64,000 nt of DNA from NCBI GenBank assembly GCA_019244055.1, contig JAFATG010000126.1:1-64000 (forward strand), read 5' to 3'. This DNA is from Acidobacteriaceae bacterium. GTDB taxonomy: Bacteria > Acidobacteriota > Terriglobia > Bryobacterales > Bryobacteraceae. The position numbers were made by a program, and so were the translations under genes. The notes beneath the pieces are model-generated. The model worked only from the letters and a program-made list of their open reading frames with translations. It was not told where the DNA came from and made no database searches. Below, one piece after another: positions 2,622 to 12,522 of this stretch (position 1 is its first letter; the number at the start of each line of letters is the position of its first letter).

Positions 2622-5600
2622 CTAATTTAATGAGCTGGTTGCTTCCGTAACCGGCTGGTTCACGCTCTGCATAACGGTCCCCGAGACCGTCTTCAGAGAG
2701 CGGAGCAGTGCCGGCCAATCTTCAAGATGTGTCGCGAATATGTTCTCAATCGCCGCGCGATTCCAGTCTGGGACATATATATCAAGCTGCGAGACCGGCA
2801 CCCCTACGCGATCGGCAAGCGCGGCGTAATACAGATTGTTCGATTCCCAGCTCTCCGCCATAATGCGGCTCGAATAACCCATAAGCGCCGGGAACGTCCG
2901 CAGATACAAAAGCCCAGGTAAATAGGAATGCGTCAGGGTTGGTTTCGGAGTGCCGAATGCTCTCGAAATCGAAGCGGGGAGAAGTTCCGGATCGTCTTTC
3001 GCTGCCATCTCGGCGATCTCTCTCGAGGGTAGATCGGGAGAGACATTTTTCAGGCTTGGATCTTCCGCCACGCTGTAGAGAATGGAGGGCGGCAACTGGC
3101 CCAAAGCGTGTGCGAAATCGGCCGACCGCAACCGGTCATCGATCCTCTCCACATCACCGGGAGTCTCATAGCGCCGCAACGCATCCATAACCTTCGATTC
3201 CACCTCGCTGTTCAGCGCCGCGGCCGCCAGCAGCGCTTCGCCGCGCTGCATGTGCAGCCCAACCCAACGAACTTGCTGTGGAGAAATGTTACGCCAGCGA
3301 TTTACGGTGACATCCACAATCATTTGAGGAACCAGATCACCCCAGATGAGGGCCTGTTCGCGTTTGGGGGTGAGGAAGTTCTGTTCCGCTTCTGCGATCG
3401 CATAGGGCAATGAAATCAGCGATCCCGCGAGGCGGCCGCCGGCGCTCTCCGGCCATCCTGTTCCCGCAACCTGTGTGGCGCGCCAGATGGCGGGAGAGCC
3501 GTCCGGGCCGATGAAGTCGTGGCTCCGAACGAAGAGCGGATTCGCAAGCAGGAGTTGGGCTCCATCGGGTGCGTAGTAGCTATAGAGAATCCCGACCAGA
3601 GAATCCCGCAGGAAGGGCGCCAAGGTTGCCTTGACGTCTTTCCTCTCGTTTCCCTTTGCCAAATTATCGAAATTCGTCTTTCGCTCTTGCGTAATGTGCC
3701 GCTCACTCCAGTAGCCCGGAACATAGGCGCTTTTTTCCGGTGCCGATAAAGAACCGCGCACGGTCTCAGCCTCCTCGAGCCGCGATAACTGCTCGGTCAG
3801 GTTCTTCATCAGCTTTGGATCCACCGGACCCTTTCCTAGGTGGTCCGCGGCAGCAAATAAGGCGTCTATCGAAACCAGGCGCTGGGCATCGAATATCCGC
3901 ATGAAGTTCTCAACCGGACTATTCGGCGCGTTCGCCGGCGCGTGTATCTTCCCGACGAGCAGTTCCGTCAGAGACTCCTGCGGCGAGAGCTTCGTGGCAC
4001 CGGCACTCGCGAGCAGCGATTCGACTGCAGCACGGTCTGCGTCAAACAGCTCTGAGCCTCCTCTGGCACGCCCAAAAGGCCCTATCAGCTTGCTGAACGA
4101 AGCATCTTGCGCTTCAGGCGCGATCGAACCCTGCCGGCAGAGAATCCGCCATAGCTCGACAACGGATTGCAGACTACCCATCGTGTCGGATTTGAGCAAA
4201 ACATCTCTTATACTCGCCGTTTCGGACATGAGGTCCACATAGTGCTGAATAGAAGGCTCACTGAGATTCGGTGCGTCGGCGAACACGGCGTATTGGGACC
4301 CGTAGGTATGGTAGGCGCTGACAAGAGCTGACGCGAGCTCCGGTGAAATCGGCTTCGCACGGTGCCGGTCGATATCGTTCAAAGCTAGGAAGATCTTCAG
4401 CGGCTCATTCTCCACCGATTTGCGGCTCAAAGCAAATAGCGCTTCGATCAGATCGTCGCTGGTGCGCCACGTTGTCGCCGAGCGGGTGAGTCTCCCATCG
4501 TATTTGCCGTTCGGGTGATGTATGAACAGGTTCCGCCAGACATCGAGGTCGCCGGGAACATGCGGTTGGCCATTCGGATCAATGTAGAGAGATGTGGTGA
4601 GCAGCATCAGCTCCGTGCTCGAGCGGAACACCGGACGCGCAGGTCCAGGGCTGGTGATCTTTCCGCGCAGCGCGTCATAGAACCGCTTCATGCGGTCGGG
4701 CTGGGTGAGATAGGTTGCCGTGGCGCCGCGGCTCCGCGAGAGAGCATCGAAGTAGCTGGCCAGCCACCCATCGTCGGTGGCGATCAACTTGATGAAGAAA
4801 GCTCCGGGATTTGATGGTGAAACGCCCACGAGCCCAGCCCAAACCTTCGGAGAACCAGGCACAACGGCAGCGCCGTTCTGGACCTGAAACATGCTCCCGA
4901 AAAAGTCCAGCACATGCGCGTAGACCTTCAACTTGGCCGGAGTGGACTGGCTTCGCAGAGCCTCCGCTGTAGCGCGGTCGAGATGTGATAACCCGAGATA
5001 CAGACGGGCTAGCGATGGATCTGACAGGAATGCGTCTATGAAGTCACCCTGACCCGGGCGACCCAGGGCGGTCATCCAATACTGTGCCGTATAGAGCACC
5101 GGGACCGGACTCGGAGCATACGGAAGCTCGAACGGGTGATTCGCTCGCAAGTCCTGCTCGAGCTCAGAAATCGGAAAGGCCGAATCGACGGTCAGAAAGG
5201 CCCGAGTGGCGTTGACCGTTTCAAGCACTAGGTCTCCGCCACAGCTCCCTCGCATGCGATAGCCGAGAATCTTCAGCAGGGCGCCCGTCTGTTCGCTGTC
5301 GCAAGTGGGGATCGCGATTTTGCCCTCCTTATTTGCCATAGCTTGCAATTCGCGTGCTTGCCCGATATAGCGGACCAGCAGGCGCATATATTCGGTCTGC
5401 TGAAGCAATTCGTTGCCGGACGCCTCATAGCCATTGGTGACGACATTCCGGGCCAGCGCGGGCAGCAGATCCTGTGCGGGCATATCGGGCGACAAAGCGG
5501 CCATACGCGCAAAGGACCGGAACGGTCCTGGAATCAGGATGGTGGAATACGGCGGCTTCAAGTTTTGTGGAGGCGGTGTGAGATCGTCGCCGCCGGCCGA

Positions 5601-5996
5601 CCGATACCGAGCAAGATCGTCCTGCAGATCCGTATTGGTTCCCTGCATGAAATCGAGCAGCACCAACTCGCGCAACGCGAGTTTGCGCAAGCTTGGGTCT
5701 TGCTCTTCATCGGCCCACTTCCGGTACGCCTGGCGCGACTCGGGATCGCCATGCCGGTCCAAAAACAGAGCTAGATCGCGCGAGGCGAGAGTATTTCCTG
5801 GTGTGTTCGCTTGCTGCTCGAGCAGCGAGCGGGCGCCGCGCAAATCACCGGCAGCCTCTTTTTGAAATACCTCGTCATCGAGCGTCGGATTGGCGCCACC
5901 CGCAGCCCGCAAATCCGCGGACCAAATGCAGGATAGAAAGGCAAGGGAAAAAGCAGCCCAGGTAGCTGACTTTAGTCCCCACGGGATAATTGTCAC
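2622..5996 (-). CDS. Large secreted hypothetical protein (1124 aa)
   Basis: Long ORF with N-terminal signal peptide; 9 bp upstream of the VWA gene on the same strand; no family recognised. Confidence 0.75.
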   Translation of the reverse strand: MTIIPWGLKSATWAAFSLAFLSCIWSADLRAAGGANPTLDDEVFQKEAAGDLRGARSLLEQQANTPGNTLASRDLALFLDRHGDPESRQAYRKWADEEQDPSLRKLALRELVLLDFMQGTNTDLQDDLARYRSAGGDDLTPPPQNLKPPYSTILIPGPFRSFARMAALSPDMPAQDLLPALARNVVTNGYEASGNELLQQTEYMRLLVRYIGQARELQAMANKEGKIAIPTCDSEQTGALLKILGYRMRGSCGGDLVLETVNATRAFLTVDSAFPISELEQDLRANHPFELPYAPSPVPVLYTAQYWMTALGRPGQGDFIDAFLSDPSLARLYLGLSHLDRATAEALRSQSTPAKLKVYAHVLDFFGSMFQVQNGAAVVPGSPKVWAGLVGVSPSNPGAFFIKLIATDDGWLASYFDALSRSRGATATYLTQPDRMKRFYDALRGKITSPGPARPVFRSSTELMLLTTSLYIDPNGQPHVPGDLDVWRNLFIHHPNGKYDGRLTRSATTWRTSDDLIEALFALSRKSVENEPLKIFLALNDIDRHRAKPISPELASALVSAYHTYGSQYAVFADAPNLSEPSIQHYVDLMSETASIRDVLLKSDTMGSLQSVVELWRILCRQGSIAPEAQDASFSKLIGPFGRARGGSELFDADRAAVESLLASAGATKLSPQESLTELLVGKIHAPANAPNSPVENFMRIFDAQRLVSIDALFAAADHLGKGPVDPKLMKNLTEQLSRLEEAETVRGSLSAPEKSAYVPGYWSERHITQERKTNFDNLAKGNERKDVKATLAPFLRDSLVGILYSYYAPDGAQLLLANPLFVRSHDFIGPDGSPAIWRATQVAGTGWPESAGGRLAGSLISLPYAIAEAEQNFLTPKREQALIWGDLVPQMIVDVTVNRWRNISPQQVRWVGLHMQRGEALLAAAALNSEVESKVMDALRRYETPGDVERIDDRLRSADFAHALGQLPPSILYSVAEDPSLKNVSPDLPSREIAEMAAKDDPELLPASISRAFGTPKPTLTHSYLPGLLYLRTFPALMGYSSRIMAESWESNNLYYAALADRVGVPVSQLDIYVPDWNRAAIENIFATHLEDWPALLRSLKTVSGTVMQSVNQPVTEATSSLN

Positions 5997-6132
5997 TTCT
6001 CAGTGCCCCCAAACTGGTTTCCTACTCTACCACTTGTCGGTTGAGACCGGAGTACCGTTATATTACGCAAATGTAAACTTTTGGTGCGGTTTGGGGGGAA
6101 GGTTCTTCGAGAACTTGGCAGGAGAACGAAAA

Positions 6133-6158
6133 AGCCCGTGGCACGACTGCCGCGGGCT
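6133..6158 (-). terminator. Rho-independent-terminator-like hairpin reading on the minus strand
   Basis: AGCCCGTGGCA-cgac-TGCCGCGGGCT, 11-bp stem with one wobble/mismatch; minus-strand readout ends in TTTTTCG. Confidence 0.5.
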
Positions 6159-6347
6159 CTCTCAAGGAGGAAGCCGAATCCGGCCTTCCTGAATCAGTCC
6201 ATCAGACACCCAGTCACCATAATCTGGCCCAAGCTGGTGAAAACGAGTGACATATCAGTCATAACCGAAAATCGGCCGCACGTTTCCCGACCAATGGTAT
6301 AGTTTGGGTTAGCGGCACTCGCCGCAGTCTGTTTTCCCCACCGAGAC

Positions 6348-6423
6348 GGGCGCGTAGCTCAATTGGCAGAGCAAGTGACTCTTAATCACTAGGTTGTAGG
6401 TTCGATTCCTACCGCGCTCACCA
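6348..6423 (+). tRNA. tRNA-Lys(CTT), CCA encoded
   Basis: Acceptor GGGCGCG/CGCGCTC, anticodon stem AGTGA/TCACT with loop CTCTTAA, T-arm GGTTCGATTCC, 3' ACCA. Confidence 0.95.
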
Positions 6424-6427
6424 GCAT
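6377..6427. repeat. 51-bp direct repeat copy 1 (tRNA-Lys 3' part), candidate att site
   Basis: gactcttaatcactaggttgtaggttcgattcctaccgcgctcaccagcat, identical to 8794..8844. Confidence 0.95.
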
Positions 6428-6478
6428 CTATAAACCAGTTCCAAACTCCCGGACGAGTGCAACCTACTGTGGTGCATT

Positions 6479-7285
6479 TTGTGCGGTTCGTTTTGGCGCG
6501 AGCCGGATGTGCGAGTAACGCTCCAACATGGCTCGGCTCATGTAACCCGGCATTGTCTGAAGGGATTTGTTCTTCTGTTGTTGTTCGCCTTCGCTGCGGG
6601 TACAGCATTAGCAACTGCAATAGATGTAAACGGCACATGTGAGCTGGGGAATTGCGCCACGCCAGACACGCTCACTGCCTCCGACGGGACGCTAACCACC
6701 TCATTTAATTTTCTGTTCACCTTCGGCAACACAGACCCGTTTTCAGTCAATGGGACAGCGGTCGCAACAAATTCGGGTGCAACTGCCTTTACCCTGGTCC
6801 CCGTCTTCACGGCCACCTACGTTGGGAATAAAGCTGGTACGAACTCTGGCAACGATACTCTGACGGTTGATTTCTTGCAGAATTATCAAAACTTGGGCGG
6901 CTCCTCTGGCCGCGCACAAGAAAGTTTCTTTGGAGAGTTTGGGGGAGGGTTTGCGCCGCTCACAAGCAGCGCCTTACAGTTTTTTCCAGGTCCCAATATG
7001 CTGCCGCTGCTAGGGCCTATTTCGCCACCGCCCGACAAGTTTTCCGCATCGTCAGGCATCCAACTTGTTGGGGGCCTCGGTAATCCTGTGTTGTTCGATG
7101 TTCGATTCACCGACACGTTCGGGGCCGGATCGGCCCCAGGGGCGTTGATCATCGCGAGCAATGTTCCCCTCCCTCCTTCGACTGTGCCGGAGCCGCGAGC
7201 TTGGTATCTGTGTGGAACGGGTATTGCGCTGCTCTTTCTTAGCAAATTGCGTGGCTCTCGTCAGGCTGAACTGGGCAGAGACTAG
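6479..7285 (+). CDS. PEP-CTERM sorting domain-containing protein
   Basis: Hydrophobic N-terminal segment and C-terminal STVPEPRAWYLCGTGIALLFLSKLRGSR (PEP motif + TM + basic tail); exact start uncertain, no ATG in a convincing position. Confidence 0.75.
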   Translation: MCGSFWREPDVRVTLQHGSAHVTRHCLKGFVLLLLFAFAAGTALATAIDVNGTCELGNCATPDTLTASDGTLTTSFNFLFTFGNTDPFSVNGTAVATNSGATAFTLVPVFTATYVGNKAGTNSGNDTLTVDFLQNYQNLGGSSGRAQESFFGEFGGGFAPLTSSALQFFPGPNMLPLLGPISPPPDKFSASSGIQLVGGLGNPVLFDVRFTDTFGAGSAPGALIIASNVPLPPSTVPEPRAWYLCGTGIALLFLSKLRGSRQAELGRD

Positions 7286-7376
7286 ACTCTGTCGAAGGCG
7301 TTGGTCGAAGCACATGCCAGAGTTGAGGCGCAGATCACTAGCAACCGGAAGCCATCGAATTCGTATCCCCACATCC

Positions 7377-8546
7377 TTAAGCCGCAAGTTCTCGCCACTG
7401 TGGAACGTAGAGATAACCAATACGCTTGTCGACAGCTTCCTCCACCCGATTTAAGAACGGATATGGTGCTTCACGGGCGCGCATCAGCTTAGACCCCGCT
7501 TTCACCGCAACAGCAAGTGCCACGCCTTTAAACCCACCAAGGAACAACGCAAAAGAATGAGCCCCAATCGCATCCTTTGCAAGATCGACCGCCTTTTCGA
7601 GACCTTTGTCGGTTACCGCGTCCTTCAAAGCCTCCTGAAGCTGGGGCAGTTTCTTCACGCATCCACGCCAGTCTTCTAGCACCTCTTCCGCCTTGGCCTT
7701 CAGGAGGTCATCGCGTTGTTTTTCGTCTATGCCAGCCGGTATATGGGTCACAAAGCTGCTCAACTTGCCGTAGAATTTTCGCAGTTCGCGGCCGCCCTCA
7801 ACCACGATGTCCCGAATGTCCTCCGGTTTCAAGCGGGTGAGATCAAACCCCGTAGCCAAAACGACCTGGCATAGCTCCTGCACTACTAGCTGTTCACCGA
7901 TTTCATCGTCGGGTAAGGCGGGTACTTGCAAGAGCCGGTCGAAAACTTGTTTTTGGGTGCCCGCGAGAAGCGCATTGTGAGCCTCGGGCGAGGGTGTCAC
8001 GACCTTGAGTCCGTCTTGCTTGGCAATTGCTAAAGCCAGAACCGACATGATGGCGGCACCCATTTGTGGATGCATAGTTAACCAGTCGAACGTGTCATGC
8101 TCCTGAACCCCCCGCGTATTCCAAGCCAGCTTCTTTTCGACGAGCCAATCGGAGAAAGTAAAATTCAAAATCTTCATTCGGTGCACTTGAAACGCTTTGG
8201 CACCGGTCCGATACTCTTCTGGAGTGCGCTTCTCTGAGTAACGCTTAACCAGAGTCCTCTCATGTTTCTTCAGGTTTTCGAACAGATCGTTTTGCGCCCG
8301 CTGCACGCGGTCACTGTAGATGCGAGCTTGATCGAGCAGCGGGTTTCCCTTCTTATCCACCAGAGCGAGATATGGCTGAATTACATTGTTATCGGACAAT
8401 GTAAAGCGGTTCGGAACTATGCGATGAACTTTCTGGAAAGCGAGAAGGGCCGATTTAAGCCAGTTCTCGTTCCGAATATGAATGTATGGATAATAGAGCG
8501 CTGCCCGCTCTTCGTAGTTCCCGTTCGTGGCCTCGGCTCCTGCCAT
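7377..8546 (-). CDS. DUF6236-like family protein
   Basis: 389 aa; N-terminal ALYYPYIHIRNENWLKSALLAFQKVHRIVP pattern recalled for DUF6236; not verified by search. Confidence 0.65.
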   Translation of the reverse strand: MAGAEATNGNYEERAALYYPYIHIRNENWLKSALLAFQKVHRIVPNRFTLSDNNVIQPYLALVDKKGNPLLDQARIYSDRVQRAQNDLFENLKKHERTLVKRYSEKRTPEEYRTGAKAFQVHRMKILNFTFSDWLVEKKLAWNTRGVQEHDTFDWLTMHPQMGAAIMSVLALAIAKQDGLKVVTPSPEAHNALLAGTQKQVFDRLLQVPALPDDEIGEQLVVQELCQVVLATGFDLTRLKPEDIRDIVVEGGRELRKFYGKLSSFVTHIPAGIDEKQRDDLLKAKAEEVLEDWRGCVKKLPQLQEALKDAVTDKGLEKAVDLAKDAIGAHSFALFLGGFKGVALAVAVKAGSKLMRAREAPYPFLNRVEEAVDKRIGYLYVPQWRELAA

Positions 8547-8793
8547 TGCATCAAACCCCCGTTCACGGTGATCTGGATTCGCGGAAGTATTATACGCGCA
8601 CCGGCTTAAACGATGTGAACGGCGCGCCCACCCTTCTCTTTCATACAGGGACTCTCATAGGGACTCTGCTTCAATTTTGTGCAATCTGGTGAACAACCCT
8701 GCGTAGCGTCCACATGCAGGGAAGTCCTGGTTACGGGGGTTCTGAGCACTCCGGCACAATCGTGAGTACCGCTGGAAACACCCCGGGGGCGGC

Positions 8794-8844
8794 GACTCTT
8801 AATCACTAGGTTGTAGGTTCGATTCCTACCGCGCTCACCAGCAT
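8794..8844. repeat. 51-bp direct repeat copy 2 (orphan tRNA-Lys 3' fragment), candidate att site
   Basis: Identical to 6377..6427; lacks the 5' half of the tRNA. Confidence 0.95.
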
Positions 8845-9318: not shown

Positions 9319-9891
9319 CTACTGGACGATGCCGCTGAAAATGTCGGCTATTCTAATCGCGCCATTGCCGATCGAGCCCGGGAGCGGAACCGTCTGTGTG
9401 AAATTCAGGACCCGCTCCGAACCGCTTTCGCAGAGATGGACACGCAGTTCCTGAGGGTCCACAATCCACACCGCAAGGCAGTGGGCATCCCGCAGGAACA
9501 GATCCTTCTTCTTTTGAAGCTCCGGCCACGTGTTCGACTCGGACCTCACCTCGACCACGAGTTGTGGGCTGCCCTGAGGGTACCCGCCGTGTTCATCGGC
9601 AGCGATCCAGCGCGCCCGGTCGATCACAAATACGTCAGGTCGCGGACCTTCCATAATTCCAAGGTTTATCGTTGTGTCAAGCCGGACCACATAGCCTGGC
9701 AGAACCGCCGCTTCGAGGAGGCGCTGTACCGCATGGCATAGATCCTGATGACGGCGACTCGGGCTGGGCGACAAGATCACTTCTCCGTTGATAAGCTCGT
9801 CCCGGCTGCCAGGCGGGGCGTTGAACCTTGTGTATTCGTCGAACCTCACTACCCCTTCATTATCGGTCAATGCCGGACCTTTACGACTCAT
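9319..9891 (-). CDS. Uma2 family endonuclease-like protein (DUF820)
   Basis: DELINGEVILSPSPSRRHQDLCHAV...GPRPDVFVIDR...PQLVVEVRSESN. Confidence 0.85.
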   Translation of the reverse strand: MSRKGPALTDNEGVVRFDEYTRFNAPPGSRDELINGEVILSPSPSRRHQDLCHAVQRLLEAAVLPGYVVRLDTTINLGIMEGPRPDVFVIDRARWIAADEHGGYPQGSPQLVVEVRSESNTWPELQKKKDLFLRDAHCLAVWIVDPQELRVHLCESGSERVLNFTQTVPLPGSIGNGAIRIADIFSGIVQ

Positions 9892-11307: not shown

Positions 11308-12078
11308 TCAAGCGGCAAGCTCAGTGACAACTTCCGCGCGATGGCTCCAAGGCACCGGTTCAATATGGTAATTGTTGAAGGCGTCCATAACCCCCCCTGA
11401 AATTGTCTGCTCCGCGTCATTAAGTACGGCATATGCTTTCGATTCCGGAGGACGCACTTCCCGCGTGTCGTTCCAGGCGTAAATGAATGCTTCTGCATTG
11501 TCGCGGGTAGGGCGGTTAATGGCCTGGACGATGCGCTCTGGCTGCTTGCGGGATTTCGGCACGACAAAATCGAACAGGTGGTCAAATCCGCTGATGCCCG
11601 TGAATTTTACCTTTGGGGTATAGCGGATGTCGTTCACATCGAGCCACGCAATTACATCTTCATAGAAAAGGCTCTCCACGACAGGCTTTGCAAGGAAAAA
11701 CAGGTCATTGACTGCAAGCATCGCCTGAATGAGATTGTGCTTGCGCAGCGGGAAGGTTTCGCCAGTTGCTCGAATCTCAAGCGTTTGATTGTTTAACCTC
11801 ACCCCAAAACCGGCGAGGGTCATTCGTAGAAGGTCTTGCCGCTTTTCAGTATTCAGGTTGCATCCCGAAGCTTCCAGGTCGTGAATGGTGTAACTGTCAT
11901 CGCTGAGAAGGTATCCGCCATTCTCGCGCCGAGCGTAAATTTGGAGTGCATCGTTATGACGGTCGAGATAGGGCGTTGTTATTTCCACCCAATCACCATT
12001 CACCTCCCGCAAGGTGGTTTTGTCCTTCAGCCAGGCGCGGTAATCATTCAAAAGCTTTTCGATTTCAGCGATGCTCAT
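11308..12078 (-). CDS. DUF1828/DUF1829-like domain protein
   Basis: ORF restarted at ATG 12078 ([21 protein letters not shown]...[25 protein letters not shown]); ATGA overlap with the upstream reading frame. Confidence 0.75.
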
Positions 12079-12522
12079 GAGAACAGTCCCATTTGAATGT
12101 CGGGAGCCAAAGTGACATTGCCATGCCGCATAAACGCTTGAAATTTCGAGAACAGGTCGCCGGTTGTGGGATAGATGTCGGCAGGTGCCGGAATAGCCCA
12201 TTTATCGCCGTAGCCTTCGATAAATGTGAAGGTGTGGGCAGGGTATTTCCTGGTCATCGGGATTACGGTGCGGACGGCCATCCAAGTCTAAGCGCATCAG
12301 CACTATCGCCTGACGGGCACGGTTTTGGTAGGTTGCTTTGGTCAGCTTTATTTGGCCGCGCGTCACGTCCAGCATAAAGTTCTCGCGTTTATCGGGAGAG
12401 GTGAGAGGAATGGCGAGTCTGCTGCCAGGCTCTGGAAAAAACCATTGTTTATCATCGACACGCTGCTTCTCCATCGAAATGAGCGCATCAGCCTCGGCTT
12501 GCGAGATATTGATATCAGCCAT
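12075..12522 (-). pseudogene. DUF6978-like protein, split by a frameshift
   Basis: Frame A ends ...[12 protein letters not shown], frame B continues [34 protein letters not shown]...; junction ~12215-12222. Confidence 0.65.

Follow-up and report, generated by a model that had tools for sequence, protein, structure and literature searches.

The Repeat-Bounded Interval at tRNA-Lys(CTT)

The window, a 64,000-nucleotide stretch of an Acidobacteriaceae contig, carries a tRNA-Lys(CTT) gene at 6348..6423 on the plus strand (ARAGORN; Rfam RF00005, 73.1 bits). The last 47 bases of this gene (tRNA positions 30-76) and the GCAT that follows, at 6377..6427 (+), recur at 8794..8844 (+) as a displaced 3' fragment; we refer to the two copies as the attL core and attR. 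Repeat comparison gave 51/51 identical bases with zero mismatches, the same orientation, and a start-to-start distance of 2417 bp; when extended, the repeat covers 57 bp at 96% identity. A search of the whole 6.2-Mb assembly (372 contigs, 96.7% complete) returned exactly two exact occurrences of the 51-mer, both on the window contig. Coordinates, identity, and uniqueness in the genome thus confirm the original prediction of a perfect 51-bp repeat of the tRNA-Lys(CTT) end at this spacing. No further tRNA-Lys fragment (21 bp, ≤3 mismatches) was found in the window, and shuffled windows give an expectation of 0.00 for a 21-bp piece of the repeat at up to 3 mismatches. The GC content of the island is 53.8%, compared with a window mean of 57.0%, which places it at the 1.3rd percentile of the window.

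Read from the sequence, the repeat pair has the recognized form of a tDNA accompanied by its displaced 3' fragment. The anticodon loop (the 'A' subsite) is among the standard crossover subsites of tRNA-gene islands (PMC4383910), and the fragment starts there, at tRNA position 30. The window island therefore has the att boundary of Islander-type tRNA islands, together with their intact tDNA and downstream same-orientation displaced 3' fragment, and it lies just above the Islander size floor of 2 kb (PMC4383910). We consider it unlikely that the duplication is an assembly artefact. Contigs of a same-genus assembly (G014) break with 141-bp overlaps, and contig C3 of the window genome overlaps the start of the window contig by about 145 bp, overlaps that imply that a 51-bp repeat would be spanned.

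The interval between the repeats encodes two proteins. The first is a PEP-CTERM-type ORF at 6548..7285 (+) with a VPEP..TM..RGSRQ C-terminus, taken from the ORF list, where it is given from a TTG at 6479. This TTG is the sole in-frame start before the signal peptide and falls inside the integrase relic described below. The ORF is 34% identical over 93 aa to a protein of the related genome G001, and the G001 homologue possesses a start and a signal peptide of its own. Our ORF has probably lost its start codon through 5' truncation at a deletion junction near 6548. The second gene, at 7377..8546 (-), comes from the ORF list and homology searches, encodes a 389-aa protein, looks intact, and is rare. 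Among the GTDB representatives searched, the protein has one full-length homologue (44%), in a Bryobacterales MAG. It has no family in Pfam (even at E ≤ 10), NCBIfam, or PHROGs, and its structure model is poor (pLDDT 44). Of the two labels first given to these genes, PEP-CTERM is kept as PEP-CTERM-type, with an NF038129 C-terminal match (E = 1.6e-4) that is below the cut-off, and DUF6236-like is unconfirmed, there being no family match; a search for literature on DUF6236 returned nothing. The original prediction had also considered that all relatives might carry the same two genes; a search of 120 other family genomes recovered the 389-aa gene from none of them, so the island has, like Islander islands, cargo absent from relatives.

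Outside the island, on its right, the window encodes a Uma2-family protein at 9319-9891 and, at 11308-12522, a DUF1828/DUF1829 and DUF6978 pair that matches the PADLOC candidate-defence models PDC-M24B/PDC-M24A.

A C-Terminal Integrase Relic beside the tRNA

The interval had been described as lacking an integrase. This description does not hold: tblastn and a family HMM both reveal the last codons of a tyrosine integrase at 6467..6547 on the minus strand, where they run antisense to the PEP-CTERM-type ORF over its 5' part. The C-terminal relic sequence, GYMSRAMLERYSHIRLAPKR..., includes the catalytic-Tyr motif MLERYSHIR, and the relic translates as GYMSRAMLERYSHIRLAPKRTAQNAPQ-stop, with the stop codon at 6464-6466. 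This stop lies about 43 bp, and the relic about 45 bp, from the tRNA-Lys(CTT) 3' end, and the relic is antiparallel to the tRNA, as is the case with intact relatives. With the integrase of the related genome G005 as the tblastn query, the match spans 6482-6691 (minus) at 43.9 bits; the noise level, from 100 dinucleotide-shuffled windows, is ≤30.4 bits for the G005 query and ≤36.6 bits for all 20 queries together. A profile of the G005 integrase together with relatives of it from the fetched loci matches the stop-to-stop fragment 6467-6607 at E = 5.5e-9, over model positions 307-342 of 371. The aligned segments (6473-6547) are well conserved: over 6473/6482-6547, 22-25 residues align at 76-82% identity with the intact tRNA-Lys(CTT) integrases of G063, G079, G105, and G115 (tblastn; loci L146/L147/L149/L151).

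We note that the relic is short, with about 25 well-matched residues. A possible extension to 6691 (tblastn, 35% over 72 aa) is not counted here, as that stretch reads as a plausible PEP-CTERM protein start on the opposite strand. The relic matches integrases at Lys-TTT, Met, and Val genes equally well, and its sequence alone therefore carries no tRNA-target information; from its position, we infer that its integrase targeted tRNA-Lys(CTT).

The relic also bears on two other origins for the repeat pair. A chance duplication of the tRNA end, by gene conversion or template switching and without site-specific recombination, would account for the perfect identity of the copies and for nothing else. 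We regard it as exceedingly improbable, given the integrase relic at the expected place and the anticodon-loop boundary, which is shared by displaced fragments in G001, G019, G022, G026, G047, and G105. Alternatively, at least two successive insertions may have made 8844 an edge common to the members of a tandem array; an autonomous element with its integrase would then have lain to the right, among the DUF7662, Uma2, cellulase-like, and DUF1828/DUF6978 genes, with the outer att lost. Tandem islands are frequent at tRNA sites, and more accessory genes, including the candidate-defence pair, do lie on the right side. This arrangement is nonetheless very unlikely: tblastn judged against shuffled windows found no above-noise integrase-like sequence right of 8844, and neither a further tRNA-Lys fragment in the window nor a further exact copy in the genome accompanies the pair.

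An Intact Element at tRNA-Lys(CTT) in a Relative

In G105, contig C153 carries an intact 8.4-kb element at tRNA-Lys(CTT) (L146:385-8750). The tRNA-Lys (309-384) is followed by an integrase (406-1560, -), a serine recombinase (1767-2969, -), a DUF3987 and CHC2 primase-helicase (4805-7249, -), an HTH_17 regulator (7250-7582, -), and a displaced 50-bp tRNA fragment (8701-8750) with 49/50 bases identical. The element shares with the window island its tRNA-Lys(CTT) target, att boundaries that agree within 3 bp, and the family, placement, and orientation of the integrase. The two differ in size and content: the G105 element is 8.4 kb long with an integrase, a serine recombinase, the DUF3987 primase-helicase, and HTH_17, and they have no cargo in common. 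A search of the window island for traces of a primase or regulator found none, and the other genes of the G105 element show no homology to it by tblastn.

The gene set of the G105 element resembles that of phage satellites. PICMI satellites are defined by a core of integrase, PF12728, and DUF3987 and insert next to fis in Vibrionaceae (PMC10803314). The G105 element has an integrase, an AlpA-type HTH_17, and a DUF3987 primase, is small, and has no structural genes that we could see; the comparison is by gene set, as the element sits at tRNA-Lys(CTT) instead of fis, outside Vibrionaceae, with no helper phage known. Its integrase reaches about 28-29% in the best match to phage records. The window island has none of the three PICMI/PICI genes (integrase, AlpA/HTH_17, primase) intact, and its likeness to these satellites is only by way of the G105 element.

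tRNA-Lys(CTT) in Related Genomes

The tRNA region has a match in 57 of 60 related genomes, and the sequence 3' of tRNA-Lys(CTT) is different in almost every relative. Displaced fragments start at tRNA position 29-31 in G001, G019, G022, G026, and G047, and elsewhere in G056 (position 38) and G030 (position 53); in G022, phage-like genes lie next to the fragment. Intact tyrosine integrases lie 3' of the tRNA and antiparallel to it in G005 and G007, with their ends about 30-38 bp away, and integrase relics occupy the same place beside tRNA-Lys(CTT) in G014, G017, and G018. The family of the window relic is widespread (60/150 family genomes at E < 1e-30), its members usually antiparallel and within a few tens of bases of a tRNA 3' end. 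In intact members the distance to the tRNA 3' end is 15-33 bp, and they are again antiparallel and often at tRNA-Lys(CTT), as in G005, G063, G079, G092, G105, G115, G136, and G157; at 7 of 30 fetched integrase loci the tRNA is tRNA-Lys(CTT), at a distance of 21-23 bp. Because displaced fragments, variable 3' sequence, adjoining integrases or their remnants, and phage-like genes recur in relatives, we conclude that elements have repeatedly integrated at tRNA-Lys(CTT) in this bacterial family and that the gene is a hot spot.

Two further observations concern this hot spot. Compact intervals (1.4-2.8 kb) that run from tRNA-Lys(CTT) to a displaced fragment and lack an intact integrase occur at L038:15157-17451 (G001), L056:9115-11926 (G056), and L067:4962-6440 (G030), and their contents are unrelated to the window island. 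In G014, contigs C256 and C138 (L044/L045) share an overlap of exactly 141 bp at tRNA-Lys(CTT). The assembly graph thus forks at the hot spot, and the fork may stem from variants in the population whose inserts differ.

Within this genus, the tRNA itself has moved repeatedly to other places in the chromosome, as seen from the loci compared (window 6348-6423; L106, L157-L161; L038-L052). Many genus and family members have tRNA-Lys(CTT) after an NAD-epimerase/Fe-S reductase pair. In the window genome (reductase at C216) and in G002, G005, G006, G011, and G014, the search next to this pair revealed no tRNA. The left neighbour of the window tRNA, at 2622-5996, is conserved, with orthologues in 56 of 60 genomes searched, and the orthologues fetched have no adjoining tRNA. 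Genes flanking the window site are not shared with the tRNA-Lys sites of relatives, and no syntenic empty site is comparable because the tRNA is in a non-ancestral place.

Possible Mobilization in trans

The perfect att copies that bound this short unit look complete, and the original prediction had offered, as one of two readings, a minimal satellite moved in trans. Under this reading, the 2.4-kb unit would be non-autonomous, in the manner of a MITE or CIME, and would be excised and moved by a tRNA-Lys(CTT)-specific integrase from a co-resident or incoming element. The intact tRNA-Lys(CTT) integrases of many relatives could supply such an activity, and compact units of about 2.2 kb (G001) and about 2.7 kb (G056) with no detected integrase occupy the same tRNA. 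We nevertheless judge this origin very unlikely. Only two att copies are present in the genome, with no circle, second copy, or tandem. Our search of the 96.7%-complete assembly found no intact integrase of the relic's subfamily, only decayed copies: one at C335:3946-4955 (L104), with 8 stops, adjoins the 3' end of tRNA-Thr(CGT), and another, on C3 at about 3870-4435 (L105), is in fragments. Two intact integrases in the genome are more distant; that on C304 sits about 47 bp from tRNA-Arg(CCG), and that on C206 is on a contig without a tRNA. The unit itself looks as if a deletion had produced it: its integrase is truncated, and its cargo ORF lacks a credible start. It has no cargo in common with the other compact islands, and the att copy in G001 is decayed. 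Mobility in trans is thus possible in principle and unsupported. A broader version, in which tRNA-Lys(CTT) hosts a class of integrase-less 2-3-kb cargo units, the window island among them, moved by the tRNA-Lys-specific integrases of co-resident satellite-like elements, appears quite unlikely.

Origin of the Window Island

The other reading, a decayed element, is borne out by the integrase relic, its intact relatives at tRNA-Lys(CTT), the 8.4-kb G105 element with the same att geometry, and the low GC content; the same evidence upholds the view of the repeat pair as the footprint of a tyrosine recombinase in a tRNA gene. In all likelihood, the window island is the remnant of an integrative element that inserted at tRNA-Lys(CTT) and was shortened by deletion. 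It is very probably an immobile, deletion-shortened remnant of the G105-type satellite-like element family.

In the sequence of events that we propose, a tyrosine integrase would have brought about recombination between attP of the element and the anticodon-loop/3' portion of tRNA-Lys(CTT). The gene at 6348..6423 would have been made whole again by the tRNA 3' half that the element brought with it (attL, 6377-6427), and the original 3' half, displaced along the chromosome, would have become the orphan attR at 8794-8844. The integrase gene would have been antiparallel to the tRNA with its end beside it, as in intact relatives. A later deletion, probably a single main one, would have taken out roughly 320 codons from the start of the integrase gene along with most of the element, including the replication genes and regulator, and fused what was left of the integrase with the PEP-CTERM cargo gene near 6548. 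The unit that remained would be unable to excise by itself. The perfect att copies and the well-conserved relic segment suggest that the loss was recent and by deletion, not slow decay.

Remnants of tRNA-bounded integrative elements are ordinary in bacteria, and CIMEs are att-flanked, integrase-less, cis-mobilizable elements. Like CIME-like remnants, the window island keeps its att sites and has lost its recombination genes; it differs in having no tandem cognate element and no evidence of mobilization. With Islander-type islands (PMC4383910) it would further share an integrase gene originally inside the interval. It differs from them in that its integrase is a short C-terminal relic, not an intact gene, which would fail the Islander integrase filter, and we therefore file the island as a remnant and not as putatively active.

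What appeared to be an integrase-less minimal island would thus be explained as a deletion remnant whose integrase tail survives antisense in a cargo ORF, one that a gene caller would start inside that tail. For annotation, the antisense strand of short att-bounded tRNA intervals should be searched for integrase C-termini before mobilization in trans is proposed. In this family, the satellite-like element of G105 could serve as the active form for study.
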